Shown here: positions 25,898 through 64,000 of the stretch, in pieces
How positions within the stretch are numbered: position 1 is the first letter of the stretch
How the letters are laid out: each line of letters starts with the position of its first letter
Assembly: GCA_903813345.2 (NCBI GenBank)
Contig: CAIIXF020000007.1
Coordinates: 37,162,759 to 37,226,758 of the forward strand
Source of the DNA: Owenia fusiformis
Lineage: Eukaryota > Annelida > Polychaeta > Sabellida > Oweniidae
DNA: 64,000 nt
Direction of reading: 5' to 3'
Position numbers and translations under genes: made by a program
The notes under the pieces: model-generated
Databases searched by the model: none
Told to the model about the DNA's origin: nothing
Seen by the model: the letters and a program-made list of their open reading frames with translations, nothing else

Positions 25898-27688
25898 CTA
25901 AATAAAAGGACCATGTCTTCAACTTACCTCCTAAAAACAATCCTATCCAATCTGTACTGCCAACCTTTTCCTTTATATCCCAATGCACTAACAACTTATC
26001 CCCAGTTGCTAAATAAAAGGACCATGTCTTCAACTTACCTCCTAAAAACAATCCTATCCAATCTGTACTGCCAACCTTTTCCTTTATATCCCAATGCACT
26101 AACAACTTATCCCCAGTTGCTAAATAAAAGGACCACGTCTTCAACTTACCTCCTAAAAACAATCCTATCCAATCTGTACTGCCAACCTTTTCCTTTATAT
26201 CCCGATGCACTAACAGCTTATCCCCAGTTGCTAAATAAAAGGACCATGTCTTCAACTTACCTCCTAAAAACAATCCTATCCAATCTGTACTGCCAACCTT
26301 TTCCTTTATATCCCAATGCACAAGCAATTTATCCCCAGTTGCTAAATAAAAGGACCATGTCTTCAACTTACCTCCTAAAAACAATCCTATCCAATCTGTA
26401 CTGCCAACCTTTTCCTTTATATCCCAATGCACTAACAGCTTATCCCCAGTTGCTAAATAAAAGGACCATGTCTTCAACTTACCTCCTAAAAACAATCCTA
26501 TCCAATCTGTACTGCCAACCTTTTCCTTTATATCCCAATGCACTAACAACTTATCCCCAGTTGCTAAATAAAAGGACCATGTCTTCAACTTACCTCCTAA
26601 AAACAATCCTATCCAATCTGTACTGCCAACCTTTTCCTTTATATCCCAATGCACTAACAACTTATCCCCAGTTGCTAAATAAAAGGACCATGTCTTCAAC
26701 TTCCCTCCTAAAAACAATCCTATCAAATCTGTACTGCCAACCTTTTCCTTTATATCCCAATGCACTAACAACTTATCCCCAGTTGCTAAATAAAAGGACC
26801 ATGTCTTCAACTTACCTCCTAAAAACAATCCTATCCAATCTGTACTGCCAACCTTTTCTTTTATATCCCAATGCACTTACAACTTATCCCCTGTTGCTAA
26901 ATAAAAGGACCATGTCTTCAACTTACCTCCTAAAAACAATCCTATCCAATCTGTACTGCCAACCTTTTCCTTTATATCCCAATGCACTTACAACTTATCC
27001 CCTGCAGTTGCTAAATAAAAGGACCATGTCTTCAACTTACCTCCTAAAAACAATCCTATCCAATCTGTACTGCCAACCTTTTCTTTTATATCCCAATGCA
27101 CTTACAACTTATCCCCAGTTGCTAAATAAAAGGACCATGTCTTCAACTTGCCTCCTAAAAACAATCCTATCTAATCTGTACTGCCAACCTCTTCCTTTAT
27201 ATCCCAATGCACTAACAACTTATCCCCAGTTGCTAAATAAAAGGACCATGTCTTCAACTTACCTCCTAAAAACAATCCTATCCAATCTGTACTGCCAACC
27301 TTTTCCTTTATATCCCAATGCACTAACAACTTATCCCCAGTTGCTAAATAAAAGGACCATGTCTTCAACTTGCCTCCTAAAAACAATCCTATCCAATCTG
27401 TACTGCCATCCTTCTCCTTTATATCCCAATGCACTAACAACTTATCCCCAGTTGCGAAATAAAAGGACCATGTCTTCAACTTACCTCCTAAAAACAATCC
27501 TATCCAATCTGTACTGCCAACCTTTTCCTTTATATCCCAATGCACTAACAACTTATCCCCTGCAGTTGCTAAATAAAAGGACCATGTCTTCAACTTACCT
27601 CCTAAAAACAATCCTATCCAATCTGTACTGCCAACCTTTTCCTTTATATCCCAATGCACTAACAACTTATCCCCAGCTGCTAAATAAT
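25898..27688 (-). repeat. 16-copy, 111-bp array spanning the HECW exon 1 donor
   Basis: Each unit (minus strand) holds 81 nt of coding-type sequence (GDKLLVHWDIKEKVGSTDWI, then GLFLG), a GAG|GTAAGT donor and 30 nt of intron start ending in CCTTTTATTTAG. The unit nearest 27.6 kb is the real exon end; the others lie in intron 1. Translated without splicing, units 9-11 from the left contain a TAA and unit 12 a TAG, so the array cannot be one exon. Most donors are GTAAGT; two units read GCAAGT and one GGAAGT. The plus-strand 604-codon open frame across it is a shadow. Confidence 0.93.
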
Positions 27689-27905: not shown

Positions 27906-28918
27906 ACAGAAGTCCTGAAAATATAACAATCTAAAAGTTAAAAATATTATGCATATATATGATACAAAAGTTCTGAAAGTATAATAATATAAAAGTTATA
28001 CAGTAAAACTTGTTTTAAGTCGAACACCTCTATAAGTAGAAAACCTCAGGAGAACACCTCTATAAGTTGAACACTTTTTAGAGTCCCATGACCAAATGAC
28101 TTAGTGTTAAACCAAAAATTGTAAGTGGAACACCTCAAAAGTGGAACACTGGTACCAAAGGTGTTCTACTTACACAGGTTTTACTGCAACTTATGGGAGG
28201 TGTTCTACTTACAGAGGTGTTTCTCTTAAAAAAGTTATAAATAATTATTTTCTTCAAATCAATCATTTCATATTTAATCAGAATGATACCAGACATATAT
28301 GACATTTTACAGTACAACTACACTGTTAACTCTGTCTTGGCATTTTTAGTAGTTTAATAGTTCATAACACAAAACGAACTTTGGATATTTACACCGAGAT
28401 GTTAATCTCTTATTAATATTTAACTCAAAGACACACTTTTCGACTTGTACCTATGTTAAACCTATCTTAGATTAAAGGTGCAACAATTAGTACAAAGGGG
28501 CCATAAACGATCATGGACCAGTGTCAAAATATATTTAAGTTTGGATATTTCATCAAGACTAACATATATTTGTATTATCTACAAAGAAACCCCCTGGATG
28601 AACATTATTTCAGCTGATATTCCTCTTGAAACGTGGTGAATCTTAAATATCTATAAGTGGGACTCCCTTTATAGAAGCTTTGGATAGAATTTACACTTCT
28701 TAATGCTGAAATTGAGAGTTCATCCTTACATTTTAAGAAAATAGGTATGTCAAAGAAGATGTTAAGCCAAATATTGACCTGATAGCTCAGAAAAAATAAA
28801 AAATTCAATTTTTCTCTCTACAGTCCTTGTTGCCCCTTTAAAAGCCTTGACTCCCAGGAATTTTTGTAGAAGTGCCACAGGTCTGTTATTCAAAGACAAA
28901 CAATGAGTTCTTGACCTT
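27906..28918. repeat. Segment duplicated exactly 3,000 bp away (first copy)
   Basis: 27906-28472 matches 30906-31467 almost perfectly in the same orientation, and 28846-28918 matches 31471-31546. The intervening 28473-28845 is missing from the second copy. The duplicated block starts inside HECW exon 1 (its first 11 nt) and includes the acceptor, polypyrimidine tract and a pogo/Tigger-like MITE. Confidence 0.9.
28001..28186. mobile_element. 186-bp pogo/Tigger-like MITE upstream of HECW exon 1
   Basis: CAGTAAAACTTGTTTTAAGT at the left and ACTTACACAGGTTTTACTG at the right are inverted repeats. Subterminal GTCGAACACCTCTATAAG units repeat inside. TA flanks the left side. The same element is present in the duplicated block at 31001-31186. 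Confidence 0.75.
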
Positions 28919-30905: not shown

Positions 30906-31546
30906 ACAGAAGTCCTGAAAATATAACAATCTAAAAGTTAAAAATATTATGCATATATATGATACAAAAGTTCTGAAAGTATAATAATATAAAAGTTATA
31001 CAGTAAAACTTGTTTTAAGTCGAACACCTCTATAAGTAGAAAACCTCAGGAGAACACCTCTATAAGTTGAACACTTTTTAGAGTCCCATGACCAAATGAC
31101 TTAGTGTTAAACCAAAAATTGTAAGTGGAACACCTCAAAAGTGGAACACTGGTACCAAAGGTGTTCTACTTACACAGGTTTTACTGCAACTTATGGGAGG
31201 TGTTCTACTTACAGAGGTGTTTCTCTTAAAAAAGTTATAAATAATTATTTTCTTCAATTCAATCATTTCATATTTAATCAGAATGATTCCAGACATATAT
31301 GACAATTTACAACTACACTGTTAACTCTGTCTTGGCATTTTTAGTAGTTTTATAGTTCATAACACAAAATGAACTTTGGATATTTACACCGAGATGTTAA
31401 TCTCTTATTAATATTTAACTCAAAGACACACTTTTCGACTTGTAGTTATGTTAGACCTATCTTAGATTATAACAGCCTTGACTCCCAGGAATTTTTGTAG
31501 AAAGTGCCACAGGTCTGTTATTCCAAGACAAACAATGAGTTCTTGA
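30906..31546. repeat. Second copy of the HECW exon 1 acceptor block
   Basis: It begins ACAGAAGTCCTGAAAATATA exactly 3,000 bp from the first copy, and carries the 11 nt of exon and its acceptor with no following exon body. The MITE at 31001-31186 is a passenger. Scattered substitutions and a 5-bp deletion near 31310 indicate a young duplication. Confidence 0.9.
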
Positions 31547-32565: not shown

Positions 32566-32818
32566 GATTGAATTCCCAAATCATGTCAATGTATCCAGGC
32601 CAGCTGACAAATATATACACGTTGCTTCATATATTCATAATTAATAACTTCCGCCTTTTTCAACTCATCAAGTTTATTTTTCTTTCCATTTCTTTGAATT
32701 CCAAAATCATGCCAATGTATCCAGGCCAGCTGACAAATATATACACGTTGCTTCATATATTCATAATTAATAACTTCCGCCTTTTTTAACTCATCAAGTT
32801 TATATTTCTTTCCGTTTC
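32566..32818. repeat. Tandem duplication, 126-bp period, two copies
   Basis: AATGTATCCAGGCCAGCTGA through TAACTTCCGCCTTTTT is repeated once with few changes. The period is a multiple of three, so one frame stays open across both copies, but no domain is seen. Confidence 0.85.
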
Positions 32819-33334
32819 TTGCTCAATCCTCCAAGTATCCATATATGCAGTAAAGCATGGACTTTTATTTATGAAGAGGGATGGAATGCATACTAATTAA
32901 ATAAATTGCTCTAGGCTTATTTTGTTTTAACTATGGACTCAGCCAATCCTAAATCATTCCAGCTTATTTAGTGCGAGCTGCTGAATTTTATTTCTTGTTT
33001 TTCATAATTCCTGTGTTCGTTAATGTAGTTTATACCGAGTTCTTTTCCTCCAGTTTATACTGAGTTTTTTCCTACAAGTACATATATAATTATAAGTCTA
33101 TCTATCTTGCCAGTAGACAACCACTTTAAACACAACCATCCAGTATTATAACAAGAGAAGTCAGCCACTTTAAGAATCCAGTTCTAATAATTCGAGAAAC
33201 TCTAGCTCTCGTTTTGGATCATATATCAATGTTTTTTTACTACAATGCATGGTTTTGATTTCAACCTTATTTTTTATGTTGCAAAGTGAAATATCTGTCT
33301 GTCTGAAATTCAATATACCAAGTATACTTTGCTA

Positions 33335-55705: not shown

Positions 55706-55801
55706 AACCTCTTACCCTACCAAAGAAAAAGTCTGCTGCAGGAAAGAGTGGAACACTCCGCATCACTCCAACACTTGAGGAATGTGATAAACCTCTTATA
55801 G
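55706..55801 (+). CDS. Zinc-finger gene, coding exon 5
   Basis: ATATTACAG|AACC... to TTATAG|GTAAGC, phase 1 in and out. It encodes EPLTLPKKKSAAGKSGTLRI, then TPTLEECDKPLI. A linker between the fingers; KKK is a possible nuclear-localisation element. The last 43 nt and donor are tandemly duplicated downstream. Confidence 0.85.
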   Translation, partial: NLLPYQRKSLLQERVEHSASLQHLRNVINLL

Positions 55802-55966
55802 GTAAGCAATTGTAGTTAACTCTTATGTGTCTAGCACATTTAGTTAACTCTAATGTGGCCATCGCATCACTCCAACACTTGAGGAATGTGATAAACCTCT
55901 CATAGGTAAGCAATTGTAGTTAACCCTCATGTGTCCAGCACATTTAGTTAACTCTTATGTGACCAG
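55759..55966 (+). repeat. 2 x 104-bp duplication of the exon 5 end and donor
   Basis: CGCATCACTCCAACACTTGA through ATAAACCTCTTATAG|GTAAGC and about 60 nt of intron occurs again at 55863. The second copy keeps the donor but has no acceptor. A smaller 27-bp repeat (AGTTAACTCTTATGTG) follows. Confidence 0.9.
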
Positions 55967-57044: not shown

Positions 57045-57550
57045 GCGCATTTGTTTCTCTCAGAACCTTTTGCGCATTTGTTTCTCTCGGAACATTTTGC
57101 GCATTTGTTTCTCTCAGAACATTTTGCGCATTTGTTTCTCTCAGAACATTTTGCGCATTTGTTTCTCTCAGAACATTTTGTGCATTTGTTTCTCTCAGAA
57201 CCTTTTGCGCATTTGTTTCTCTCGGAACATTTTGCGCATTTGTTTCTCTCAGAACATTTTGCGCATTTGTTTCTCTCAGAACATTTTGCGCATTTGTTTC
57301 TCTCAGAACATTTTGTGCATTTGTTTCTCTCAGAACATTTTGCGCATTTGTTTCTCTCAGAACCTTTTGCGCATTTGTTTCTCTCAGAACTTTTTGCGCA
57401 TTTGTTTCTCTCAGAACATTTTGCGCATTTGTTTCTCTCAGAACATTTTGTGCATTTGTTTCTCTCAGAACATTTTGCGCATTTGTTTCTCTCAGAACCT
57501 TTTGCGCATTTGTTTCTCTCAGAACTTTTTGCCCATTTGTTTCTCTCTTG
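57045..57550 (+). repeat. 27-bp array of acceptor-like sites, about 18 copies
   Basis: GCGCATTTGTTTCTCTCAGA followed by ACATTTT repeats. On the sense strand each unit carries TTTGTTTCTCTCAG|A, a strong-looking 3' splice site, immediately upstream of exon 6. Open frames on both strands are shadows of the multiple-of-three period. Confidence 0.92.
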
Positions 57551-57626: not shown

Positions 57627-57766
57627 GCCTTCAGTACATAACAGAGTTTCAGAAGAATGACCCAAGTGTTGAAGAGCGCTATGTCTGTAACCTTTGCGAG
57701 AGTATGTGTGACCCACGTGTCATTATTTCCCACGTCACTGGTCAGAAACACAGAATGAAATACTTG
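57627..57766 (+). CDS. Zinc-finger gene, coding exon 6 (finger 2)
   Basis: TTGTATTTTCAG|GCC... to TACTTG|GTAGGT, phase 1 in, phase 0 out. It encodes GLQYITEFQKNDPSVEERYV, then CNLCESMCDPRVIISH and VTGQKHRMKYL. The finger has C-N-L-C, 11 residues, H-x5-H with GQKHR, again matrin/U1-type. The next exon should begin in phase 0 and continue the helix; the 72-bp array offers KEYFMNYI in exactly that phase. Confidence 0.9.
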
Positions 57767-57799
57767 GTAGGTAATTATAGGATATCCTATGATTTTGAG

Positions 57800-58510
57800 G
57801 AATATCATTTTTATCTACGAGGTGATATTGATATCTGCATGAGAGAGCGAAGCGAACGAGTGCATATATCAATATCACCGAGTAGATTAAAATGATATTC
57901 TGAAAAAAATCTTAGGATGTTCTTATTATCCTACACTTACAAGGAGTGTACTGAATGTATAATATCATTGTAAAATGAATTTCATGCCAAATAGAGTCAA
58001 TTTGGCGGGAAATCAACTAGCGGAGTATATCGTCACAATATCCTCCGTATATTGGGTTTTCCGGAGGATATCGTCACGATATCCTCCGCCCGGAGTATAT
58101 TGTAACGATATCCTCCGGATATTCATTTTGCCAATAAATATCAAATTTATTTTTTCATGTTATTATACATTTAGTACACTAAGTGTAGGATAATGATATA
58201 TATCTTTGTGTGATAATCAGATTTGATGAAAGATATTTTTTATTTTATTCTGTCAGATGTGGTTTCATATTCAGAAAGCCTCCATGAAGTTGCTGTTTTC
58301 TAGTTAGTTTGTGTGTCATTTGTTCTTACTCTCTTTTGATACTGTTATTTTTTCATAAAAACTTAAATATTGCTGGTTAAGTATTTCTTATAGCAATGTC
58401 AGTTTAAAATGTAAGATGAATGATTGGTGAAATAATCAGATTTGATGAAAAATATTTTTAATTTTTTTATACTGAATGTCACGTCTCATATTCAGAAAGC
58501 CTATATTGTA
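57800..58510. other. Intron 6 with palindromic and repeated patches
   Basis: 58010-58125 contains alternating GGAGTATAT, GGATATCGTCACGATATCC and ATATCCTCCG palindromes. 57780-57895 is itself a loose inverted repeat (AATATCATTTTTATCTACGA against TAGATTAAAATGATATTC). AGATTTGATGAAAGATATTT recurs near 58438. Confidence 0.45.
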
Positions 58511-58513
58511 CTA

Positions 58514-58749
58514 CAGTGAAAGGTTTAAAGTTGAACACCTAAAGTAGAACACTTTTGAACAGTTCCCACATAGAACACTTTTGAACAGCTCCAAGATAGA
58601 ACACTTTTGAACAGCTCCCAGATAGAACACTTTTGAACAGCTCCCAGATAGACCACTTTTGAACAGCTCCCAGATAGAACACTTTTGAACAGCTCCAAGA
58701 TAGAACACTTTTGAGGCACCAATGTTGTTCTATTTATAAACGCTTTACA
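58514..58749. mobile_element. Pogo/Tigger-like MITE with internal 25-bp array
   Basis: CAGTGAAAGGTTTAAAGTTG at the left and TTATAAACGCTTTACAG at the right are degenerate inverted repeats. Between them AACACTTTTGAACAGCTCCC with AGATAG repeats about six times. The exon-acceptor array begins at its right edge. Confidence 0.6.
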
Positions 58750-58757
58750 GTATTTCA

Positions 58758-61700
58758 GAAATCCTTCTTTATTTTATCACTCTTTTGTATTTCAGAAAGA
58801 ATACTTCATGAACTACATAACACTTATGAACCAAACAACTTTATTTTTTCAGTCTTTTGTATTTCAGAAAGAATACTTCATGAACTACATAACACTTATG
58901 AACCAAACAACTTTATTTTATCACTCTTTGGTATTTCAGAAAGAATACTTCATGAAATACATAACACTTATGAACCAAACAACTTTATTTTTTCACTCTT
59001 TGGTATTTCAGAAAGAATACTTCATGAACTACATAACACTTATGAACCAAACAACTTTATTTTTTCAGTCTTTTGTATTTCAGAAAGAATACTTCATGAA
59101 CTACATAACACTTATGAACCAAACAACTTTATTTTTTCAGTCTTTTGTATTTCAGAAAGAATACTTCATGAACTACATAACACTTATGAACCAAACAACT
59201 TTATTTTTTCAGTCTTTGGTATTTCAGAAAGAATACTTCATGAATTACATAACACTTATGAACCAAACAACTTTATTTTTTCAGTCTTTTGTATTTCAGA
59301 AAGAATACTTCACTAACTACATAACACTTATGAACCAAACAACTTTATTTTTTCAGTCTTTTGTATTTCAGAAAGAATACTTCATGAACTACATAACACT
59401 TATGAACCAAACAACTTTATTTTATCACTCTTTGGTATTTCAGAAAGAATACTTCATGAAATACATAACACTTATGAACCAAACAACTTTATTTTTTCAC
59501 TCTTTGGTATTTAAGAAAGAATACTTCATGAAATACATAACACTTATGAACCAAACAACTTTATTTTATCACTCTTTTGTATTTCAGAAAGAATACTTCA
59601 TGAACTACATAACACTTATGAACCAAACAACTTTATTTTATCACTCTTTGGTATTTCAGAAAGAATACTTCATGAATTACATAACACTTATGAACCAAAC
59701 AACTTTATTTTTTCACTCTTTGGTATTTCAGAAAGAATACTTCATGAACTACATAACACTTATGAACCAAACAACTTTATTTTATCACTCTTTGGTATTT
59801 CAGAAAGAATACTTCATGAAATACATAACACTTATGAACCAAACAACTTTATTTTTTCACTCTTTGGTATTTCAGAAAGAATACTTCATGAAATACATAA
59901 CACTTATGAACCAAACAACTTTATTTTATCACTCTTTTGTATTTCAGAAAGAATGCTTCATGAACTACATAACACTTATGAACCAAACAACTTTATTTTT
60001 TCAGTCTTTTGTATTTCAGAAAGAATGCTTCATGAACTACATAACACTTATGAACCAAACAACTTTATTTTTTCAGTCTTTGGTATTTCAGAAAGAATAC
60101 TTCATGAATTACATAACACTTATGAACCAAACAACTTTATTTTATCACTCTTTTGTATTTCAGAAAGAACACTTCATGAACTACATAACACTTATGAACC
60201 AAACAACTTTATTTTTTCACTCTTTGGTATTTCAGAAAGAATACTTCATGAATTACATAACACTTATGAACCAAACAACTTTATTTTTTCAGTCTTTTGT
60301 ATTTCAGAAAGAATACTTCATGAACTACATAACACTTATGAACCAAACAACTTTATTTTTTCAGTCTTTTGTATTTCAGAAAGAATACTTCACTAACTAC
60401 ATAACACTTATGAACCAAACAACTTTATTTTTTCAGTCTTTTGTATTTCAGAAAGAATACTTCATGAACTACATAACACTTATGAACCAAACAACTTTAT
60501 TTTATCACTCTTTGGTATTTCAGAAAGAATACTTCATGAAATACATAACACTTATGAACCAAACAACTTTATTTTTTCACTCTTTGGTATTTCAGAAAGA
60601 ATACTTCATGAAATACATAACACTTATGAACCAAACAACTTTATTTTATCACTCTTTTGTATTTCAGAAAGAATACTTCATGAACTACATAACACTTATG
60701 AACCAAACAACTTTATTTTATCACTCTTTGGTATTTCAGAAAGAATACTTCATGAAATACATAACACTTATGAACCAAACAACTTTATTTTATCACTCTT
60801 TTGTATTTCAGAAAGAATGCTTCATGAACTACATAACACTTATGAACCAAACAACTTTATTTTTTCAGTCTTTTGTATTTCAGAAAGAATGCTTCATGAA
60901 CTACATAACACTTATGAACAAAACAACTTTATTTTTTCAGTCTTTTGTATTTCAGAAAGAATGCTTCATGAACTACATAACACTTATGAACCAAACAACT
61001 TTATTTTTTCACTCTTTTGTATTTCAGAAAGAATGCTTCATGAACTACATAACACTTATGAACCAAACAACTTTATTTTTTCAGTCTTTTGTATTTCAGA
61101 AAGAATGCTTCATGAACTACATAACACTTATGAACCAAACAACTTTATTTTTTCAGTCTTTTGTATTTCAGAAAGAATGCTTCATGAACTACATAACACT
61201 TATGAACCAAACAACTTTATTTTATCACTCTTTGGTATTTCAGAAAGAATACTTCATGAAATACATAACACTTATGAACCAAACAACTTTATTTTTTCAG
61301 TCTTTTGTATTTCAGAAAGAATGCTTCATGAACTACATAACACTTATGAACCAAACAACTTTATTTTTTCAGTCTTTTGTATTTCAGAAAGAATACTTCA
61401 TGAACTACATAACACTTATGAACCAAACAACTTTATTTTTTCAGTCTTTTGTATTTCAGAAAGAATACTTCATGAACTACATAACACTTATGAACCAAAC
61501 AACTTTATTTTATCACTCTTTGGTATTTCAGAAAGAATACTTAATGAAATACATAACACTTATGAACCAAACAACTTTATATTTTCACTCTTTGGTATTT
61601 CAGAAAGAATACTTCATGAAATACATAACACTTATGAACCAAACAACTTTATTTTATCACTCTTTTGTATTTCAGAAAGAATACTTCATGAACTACATAA

Positions 61701-64000
61701 CACTTATGAACCAAACAACTTTATTTTATCACTCTTTGGTATTTCAGAAAGAATACTTCATGAAATACATAACACTTATGAACCAAACAACTTTATTTTT
61801 TCAGTCTTTTGTATTTCAGAAAGAATACTTCATGAACTACATAACACTTATGAACCAAACAACTTTATTTTTTCAGTCTTTTGTATTTCAGAAAAAATAC
61901 TTCATGAACTACATAACACTTATGAACCAAACAACTTTATTTTATCACTCTTTGGTATTTCAGAAAGAATACTTCATGAAATACATAACACTTATGAACC
62001 AAACAACTTTATTTTTTCACTCTTTGGTATTTCAGAAAGAATACTTCATGAAATACATAACACTTATGAACCAAACAACTTTATTTTATCACTCTTTTGT
62101 ATTTCAGAAAGAATACTTCATGAACTACATAACACTTATGAACCAAACAACTTTATTTTATCACTCTTTGGTATTTCAGAAAGAATACTTCATGAAATAC
62201 ATAACACTTATGAACCAAACAACTTTATTTTATCACTCTTTTGTATTTCAGAAAGAATACTTCACTAACTACATAACACTTATGAACCAAACAACTTTAT
62301 TTTTTCACTCTTTGGTATTTCAGAAAGAATACTTCATGAAATACATAACACTTATGAACCAAACAACTTTATTTTATCACTCTTTTGTATTTCAGAAAGA
62401 ATGCTTCATGAACTACATAACACTTATGAACCAAACAACTTTATTTTTTCAGTCTTTTGTATTTCAGAAAGAATGCTTCATGAACTACATAACACTTATG
62501 AACCAAACAACTTTATTTTTTCACTCTTTTGTATTTCAGAAAGAATGCTTCATGAACTACATAACACTTATGAACCAAACAACTTTATTTTTTCAGTCTT
62601 TTGTATTTCAGAAAGAATGCTTCATGAACTACATAACACTTATGAACCAAACAACTTTATTTTTTCAGTCTTTTGTATTTCAGAAAGAATGCTTCATGAA
62701 CTACATAACACTTATGAACCAAACAACTTTATTTTATCACTCTTTGGTATTTCAGAAAGAATACTTCATGAAATACATAACACTTATGAACCAAACAACT
62801 TTATTTTTTCAGTCTTTTGTATTTCAGAAAGAATGCTTCATGAACTACATAACACTAATGAACCAAACAACTTTATTTTTTCAGTCTTTTGTATTTCAGA
62901 AAGAATACTTCATGAACTACATAACACTTATGAACCAAACAACTTTATTTTTTCAGTCTTTTGTATTTCAGAAAGAATACTTCATGAACTACATAACACT
63001 TATGAACCAAACAACTTTATTTTATCACTCTTTGGTATTTCAGAAAGAATACTTCATGAAATACATAACACTTATGAACCAAACAACTTTATTTTTTCAC
63101 TCTTTGGTATTTCAGAAAGAATACTTCATGAAATACATAACACTTATGAACCAAACAACTTTATTTTATCACTCTTTTGTATTTCAGAAAGAATACTTCA
63201 TGAACTACATAACACTTATGAACCAAACAACTTTATTTTATCACTCTTTGGTATTTCAGAAAGAATACTTCATGAAATACATAACACTTATGAACCAAAC
63301 AACTTTATTTTATCACTCTTTTGTATTTCAGAAAGAATACTTCACTAACTACATAACACTTATGAACCAAACAACTTTATTTTTTCACTCTTTGGTATTT
63401 CAGAAAGAATACTTCATGAAATACATAACACTTATGAACCAAACAACTTTATTTTATCACTCTTTTGTATTTCAGAAAGAATGCTTCATGAATTACATAA
63501 CACTTATGAACCAAACAACTTTATTTTTTCAGTCTTTTGTATTTCAGAAAGAATGCTTCATGAACTACATAACACTTATGAACCAAACAACTTTATTTTT
63601 TCAATCTTTTGTATTTCAGAAAGAATGCTTCATGAACTACATAACACTTATGAACCAAACAACTTTATTTTTTCAGTCTTTTGTATTTCAGAAAGAATAC
63701 TTCATGAACTACATAACACTTGTACTTATAAACCAAACAACTTTATTTTTTCAGTCTTTTGTATTTCAGAAAGAATACTTCATGAACTACATAACACTTA
63801 TGAACCAAACAACTTTATTTTTTCAGTCTTTTGTATTTCAGAAAGAATACTTCATGAACTACATAACACTTATGAACCAAACAACTTTATTTTTTCAGTC
63901 TTTTGTATTTCAGAAAGAATACTTCATGAAATACATAACACTTATGAACCAAACAACTTTATTTTTTCACTCTTTGGTATTTCAGAAAGAATACTTCATG
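58758..64000 (+). repeat. 72-bp array (>70 copies) carrying an exon acceptor, runs off window
   Basis: The unit is TTTGTATTTCAG|AAAGAATACTTCATGAACT, then ACATAACACTTATGAACC, AAACAACTTTATTTTTTCAG, TC. It contains two acceptor-like pyrimidine-AG sites and no good donor. From 58796 the phase continuing exon 6 (KEYFMNYITLMNQTTLFFQS then FVFQ, 24 residues per unit) shows no stop to the window end, about 1,735 codons; one unit near 63720 is 78 bp, still in frame. The +1 frame (ERILHELHN...) is broken by several stops. Subtypes (FFQSFV/FYHSLV; Y/C; N/K) form higher-order blocks with 15- and 21-unit spacing. The true exon body probably lies beyond the window. Confidence 0.93.

Follow-up and report, generated by a model that had tools for sequence, protein, structure and literature searches.

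A 105-copy minisatellite apparently born from an intron–exon boundary, and probably removed with its intron, in a probable protostome genome

What becomes of a transcript in which more than one hundred look-alike 3′ splice sites precede the one that leads into the next exon? The window, that is, the whole 64,000-nucleotide stretch of DNA analysed here (G000:C7:37162759-37226758, from one 498.26-Mb assembly in 525 contigs), runs out inside such a series, within a gene that reads by eye as zinc-finger-like and RGG-rich. A first-pass annotation had proposed that the array either serves as a run of alternative 3′ splice sites feeding the next exon or is translated as a giant 24-residue repeat. We followed the contig 20 kb past the window edge and examined the first 10 kb (L001) and part of the second (L002), using extended coordinates that continue the window numbering, so that L001:7728 and L001:7729 are extended positions 71728 and 71729. 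The array is best explained as a minisatellite born from the boundary of intron 6 and exon 7 that is probably removed whole with intron 6 through the last acceptor, a reading to which we give a probability of about 0.88. The features on which the argument turns are as follows.

57627..57766, forward strand: exon 6, ending in phase 0 with donor TTG|GTAGGT; a single match in the genome; in frame with exons 5, 7 and 8
57767..64000 in the window and on to L001:7728 (extended 71728), forward strand: intron 6, 13,962 bp in all
58767..64000 in the window, on to extended 65590, resuming at 70996 after an LTR element and running up to the authentic boundary at 71729, forward strand: putative 72-bp boundary minisatellite (TRF, boundary comparison)
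58796..64000, forward strand: KEYF reading phase, open through the array up to a TAA at extended 64151; probably untranslated
63692..63769, forward strand: 78-bp copy (+6 bp) that keeps the reading frame (acceptor spacing)
L001:1591-6995: LTR retroelement inserted in the array

Within the window, TRF reports 72.6 copies of the 72-bp unit over 58767-64000 with 96% matches, and 73 acceptors are present, in agreement with the more than 70 copies first counted up to the window edge. Across window and extension, 105 array acceptors stand in series before the authentic acceptor of exon 7, and all 106 carry the AG. The 105 spacings between them are 72 bp in 101 cases; the others are 78, 71, 5,481 and, at the end, 31 bp, and the 5,481-bp spacing arises because the LTR retroelement sits within a unit. 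Each array unit reads AAAGAATACTTCATGAACTACATAACACTTATGAACCA..., with its own CTTTATTTTTTCACTCTTTTGTATTTCAG directly before it. The complete retention of AG might be taken as a sign of selection, but among the 101 units of 72 bp only 16 of the 72 columns vary and the other 56 are invariant. Units recur in blocks at a lag of 15 (15 of 57 pairs exact), which shows block-wise turnover. A genome search with one unit returned 104 matches, all at this locus of C7 from the window to 37234455, among the best candidates scored, so that other places are possible. The array is far beyond chance.

The retroelement that splits the array carries two LTRs of 872 bp each, differing at 1 of 872 positions, and is flanked by a 4-bp target duplication, TACA (by eye from the flanks). 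The single LTR difference and the target duplication indicate a recent insertion into a pre-existing array. By eye, its internal frame has gag-, protease- and integrase-like parts and no obvious reverse transcriptase.

The exon to which the unit belongs lies 7.7 kb past the window edge, at extended 71729-71930 (L001:7729-7930). It is 202 nt long, has the donor AAT|GTATGT, and its boundary at L001:7729 reads TTTTATTTCAG|AAA GAA CAC TTC ATG AAC TAT GTC ACA CTT ATG AAG CAT. A single open frame results when exons 6 and 7 are joined to the end of exon 5 on one side and to the first 120 nt of exon 8 on the other, which identifies the exon at L001:7729 as the gene's exon 7 and its entry phase as 0. 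Both the phase-0 end of exon 6, with its donor after position 57766, and the first-pass view that the unit is an exon's acceptor lying in the gene's own phase are borne out by this join. The unit at 58868 is identical to the exon 7 boundary at 43 of 49 nt (11 intronic, 38 exonic), in a comparison whose query took in just 12 nt of authentic intron. This alignment scores 68, whereas 500 Markov shuffles of the same stretch gave no more than 28 and 228 control chunks from the window no more than 32. The first 37 nt of the units match exon 7 at 30-32 of 37 positions in 101 of 104 units. By sequence comparison, then, the 72-bp unit was copied from the place where intron 6 meets exon 7. A tandem duplication would have taken in the last part of the intron, represented by 29 nt of the unit, and the beginning of the exon, represented by about 38 nt or, with the last five bases of the unit, by 43 nt, while the authentic boundary stayed in place at the 3′ end of the duplication; slippage or unequal exchange would then have brought the array to 105 acceptor-bearing copies.

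A 26-bp array at 58545-58714 (CAGATAGAACACTT) was also considered as a relative of the exon 7 start and was rejected, its score being reached by 7 of 500 shuffles and by several control chunks. No paralogue that could represent the ancestral form was found, the exon 7 peptide having, besides its self-match, a single weak hit (E 0.03, 26%), and the exon 6-8 peptide matched no Pfam family above the cut-off, with three weak matches at E 0.07-0.15. Elsewhere in intron 6, nested inverted repeats at 57793-58132 are probably the remains of small transposons. Intron 5 holds a 27-bp array of 18.6 copies (57045-57547) with an acceptor-like unit (TTTGTTTCTCTCAG|AA), which by eye has no match to exon 6 and was rejected as a copy of that boundary. 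A 17-bp array in intron 7 (L001:8788-9382) was set aside likewise: it is acceptor-like, but by eye it does not match the next exon.

The reading phase entered at the first acceptor, which the first-pass annotation had followed to the window edge, stays open for 1,785 codons and closes at the TAA at 64151, 151 bases beyond that edge; its translation would yield peptides such as KEYFMNYITLMNQTTLFFHSLVFQ. The indel copy of +6 bp was confirmed as the 78-bp copy starting at 63692, and the ERILHELHN frame is broken as described, in the window by ILH* copies at 59316, 60396, 62268 and 63348 and by one TAA at 59514. A stop is reached from all 105 upstream acceptors, and exon 7 is entered in frame from the authentic acceptor only. 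Most of them (74 of 105) lead to the TAA at 64151, which follows the 71-bp copy; 21 lead to a stop at 65599 inside the retroelement; and the remaining 10 lead to a TGA at 71767, 38 nt into exon 7, which they enter in the wrong phase because the last copy is 31 bp long. This result supports neither proposal for the array: on the sequence, no upstream acceptor feeds the next exon productively, and the phase said to encode a giant repeat ends in a stop from every one of them.

Why, then, is the phase open for so long? The proposed comparison of synonymous and nonsynonymous differences between units in the KEYF frame revealed no coding bias. Among the 101 units of 72 bp, 16 columns carry 19 distinct single-base changes, of which 2 are synonymous, 17 are nonsynonymous and none creates a stop, where all possible changes to the unit comprise 36 synonymous, 170 nonsynonymous and 10 stops. 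With probabilities of 0.33 for two or fewer synonymous changes and 0.41 for no stop, the observed split equals chance expectation; two neighbouring changes always co-occur, and merging them gives 18 changes with probabilities of 0.37 and 0.43. In 20,000 dinucleotide shuffles of the 72-bp unit, a given frame was open in 16% and at least one forward frame in 41%; keeping the first 42 nt and shuffling the remainder left the KEYF frame open in 71% of cases. The long open frame of the array is not beyond chance. Three things keep the phase open: over half of the unit comes from phase-0 coding sequence, the intronic remainder has by accident no stop in that phase, and the unit length, 72, is divisible by 3. 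Of the two sources suggested earlier for the frame bias, descent from coding sequence explains it, whereas the coding bias expected of selection is absent among the units. The KEYF phase is inherited from exon 7 and not visibly maintained.

We then weighed how the transcript is likely to be spliced. Behind the last acceptor, and behind no other, the reading frame is intact and a proper donor follows after 202 nt. Exon 6 would be joined to it and the array would leave with intron 6, as published lancelet RT-PCR supports. Pyrimidines fill 12-14 of the 17 positions before the AG in array acceptors and 13 of 17 in the authentic one, so the sequence offers no reason for the array acceptors to be weak; the last one stands out by the proper exon and donor behind it. 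Against its use count the equally good appearance of the array acceptors, their earlier transcription and the position of the nearest, 31 nt upstream. The frequent GT sites of the array are poor donors, the best of them, TTG|GTATTT (47 sites), matching the consensus at 5 of 9 positions; a single CAC|GTATGA matches at 6 of 9. The data require no function of the array's own.

Such a series of sites might nevertheless act as poison acceptors, a share of transcripts splicing into the array, reading to a stop and being degraded, with copy number tuning the amount of protein. In favour of this, all 105 acceptors that precede the productive one keep their AG and pyrimidine tract, and every one of them leads to a stop. 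Against it, the lack of a good donor near by (TTG|GTATTT, 5 of 9) disfavours the array acceptors under exon definition, and RT-PCR on lancelet boundary duplications is said to give regular splicing (PMC3087553); we consider poison splicing unlikely. Should the TTG|GTATTT sites be used as donors, the units could become cassette exons of 63 nt from acceptor to donor, phase 0 to phase 0, placing a variable number of 21-residue repeats (21 codons each) in the protein, and lancelet PGBD5 repeat copies have been called exon by automatic annotation, though without mRNA support (PMC3902484). The 47 candidate donors are weak, however, with no G at +5, the first 37 nt of the units have drifted from exon 7, and differences between units show no coding bias, which together make cassette use highly improbable.

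Translation of the whole array as one 24-residue repeat, which the 1,785 open codons might invite, is the least probable reading of all, since the frame ends at 64151 and cannot rejoin exon 7 in frame, the array is split by the LTR element, there is no coding bias, and no Pfam family matches the KEYF frame at E 0.001. Long arrays such as this one, taken from one assembly, are prone to mis-sizing, yet the copies differ from each other, a retroelement with its own 4-bp target duplication lies inside, and the adjoining exon 6 is unique, so that an assembly artefact is very unlikely; the copy number may be wrong, the structure hardly.

The preferred reading, a boundary minisatellite removed with intron 6, has precedents, although the first-pass annotation knew of no described system of this form. 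The founding paper on such repeats, called mirages, is said to be the Adh paper. Lancelet mirages are minisatellite-like duplications of intron–exon boundaries with units of 10-160 bp that reportedly do not disturb splicing; the globin gene BflGb6 shows the same anatomy, with RT-PCR said to show regular splicing (PMC3087553). Haplotypes differing in length and somatic instability are further features of mirages. Our unit resembles that of BflGb6 (intron end plus exon start), and BflGb9 combines an exon end with an intron start; the lancelet globin mirages and this array share a kept authentic boundary, many units with splice dinucleotides, and homogenisation inside with divergence at the edge (PMC3087553). 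Unlike them, this array has 105 copies rather than the 6 and 3 given for BflGb6, is split by a retroelement and lies in a protostome-looking host (PMC3087553). A further report adds lancelet PGBD5 and troponin C examples (PMC3902484). There, the 60-bp and 108-bp PGBD5 repeats, as here, are tandem and overlap exon ends and splice sites; they number 2 or 7 and 3 or 6 copies, depending on the assembly, in a different gene and host, and in the authors' argument, which has little mRNA evidence behind it, splicing is left undisturbed (PMC3902484).

Taken feature by feature, the repeats span an exon–intron boundary (43/49 identity, far above controls), the unit length is minisatellite-like (72 bp in 101 of 105 spacings), and an intact authentic boundary stands beside the cluster (exon 7 with its donor, and one open frame from the end of exon 5 to the start of exon 8). 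Splice signals are kept in many units (AG in 106/106), and the units fit concerted evolution inside with the edge excluded: those of the first block are about 96% alike, whereas differences from them are seen in the last copy, of 31 bp, and in exon 7. Only the reported distribution, a lancelet host, probably departs from the pattern, and it is no part of the definition. On these tested features we class the array as a boundary minisatellite of the described kind, very large, and its effect on splicing we infer. In the open-licence literature we found no protostome report of mirage-type repeats, though one may be missed, for example in work on C. elegans minisatellites and multiple splicing decisions (PMC4039745) or in a nematode chromosome review (PMC9071541).

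The host is probably a protostome and not a lancelet. A mir-2 search scored 60 of 155,227 candidates and gave four matches within 5.2 kb on C3, three of them over the cut-off; 1 of 14 control genomes gave a signal, below the cut-off. The mature mir-2-like sequence TATCACAGCCAGC(T/A)TTGATGAGC occurs at three places in L021, one in L022 and none in L023, and from their positions these are four different places. To our knowledge, mir-2 occurs in protostomes only. GFP genes are numerous in lancelets, and neither the GFP family nor a lancelet-derived GFP found a genome match, which is weak evidence since an empty answer shows little; COX1 likewise found no match in the genome.

The 72-bp array has company. 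In about 212 kb we count six boundary or terminal-exon duplications including it, three of the five others in the same gene; they were picked by eye from TRF lists, so that six is a lower bound.

55759..55965, forward strand: end of exon 5 with donor TAG|GTAAGC, 104 bp x 2.0, same gene
L002:3090-3314: acceptor of a late exon, 111 bp x 2.0, same gene (exons by eye)
L002:4098-4375: terminal exon with its acceptor, 133 bp x 2.1, same gene (exons by eye)
25898..27687, reverse strand: end of a HECW_N exon with donor and intron start, 111 bp x 16, second gene of the window
L019:874-2604: end of a UBR2-like exon with donor, 92 bp x 18.6 (TRF, random C7 sample)

The HECW_N exon is identified by Pfam (E 2.2e-11) and by the HECW2 structure 2lfe (E 6.4e-8); its array carries the donor GAG|GTAAGT in 13 of 16 copies, and in the list of open reading frames the exon's frame is open over many copies, with stops in some. 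In the UBR2-like array, CAG|GTATGT is present in 19 of 19 copies found, and the UBR2 match (9wbv, E 6e-5) extends across joined exons, a single exon alone giving none. The latter was the one boundary array in a random sample of C7 that comprised 128 kb in sixteen 8-kb pieces, those that come first by coordinate among 18 drawn. Arrays of period at least 10 and length at least 100 occupy 9.9% of the random pieces; in the window their share is 22.7%, or 15.8% without the 72-bp array. As some 10-20% of sequence lies in arrays, it may be enough that minisatellites now and then coincide with exon ends by chance; arrays could conceivably target exon boundaries preferentially, but a few per gene could arise by chance.

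It is likely, on these findings, that boundary minisatellites are common in at least one protostome genome rather than a lancelet peculiarity, reaching more than 100 copies and affecting several exons of one gene. What is new here is the probable protostome host, the 105-copy size and the frequency of boundary duplications. Rogers, in 1989, reportedly described intron gain through tandem duplication of splice signals (cited in PMC3087553); set against that proposal, duplicated boundaries such as these could later become new introns or exons, while nothing here shows that one has arisen. If common in protostomes, they would generally and repeatedly give rise to decoy splice sites and could open a way to new introns, and their frequency outside lancelets would allow that proposed way to be tested in another lineage. 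Use of the last acceptor would mean that 105 acceptors of nearly equal quality, spread over 12.9 kb, are bypassed before it is reached, which bears directly on first-AG scanning, co-transcriptional competition and exon definition. Nature would here have set up an experiment on the way in which a single productive acceptor is picked out by the spliceosome behind 105 look-alikes. Boundary minisatellites also mislead gene prediction, the 1,785-codon open frame being very probably not protein.

Other repeats were noted in the sequence surveyed. The same three short tandem repeats occur at 27947-28221 and at 30947-31221, exactly 3,000 bp apart, and about 3 kb may be duplicated there. On the reverse strand, 32568-32820 holds a 126-bp x 2 duplication in apparent coding sequence (GKKYKLDELKKAEVINYEYMKQR), and L019:6602-7738, also on the reverse strand, contains a mucin-like 378-residue frame built on the nine-residue repeat SQTTVPINE.
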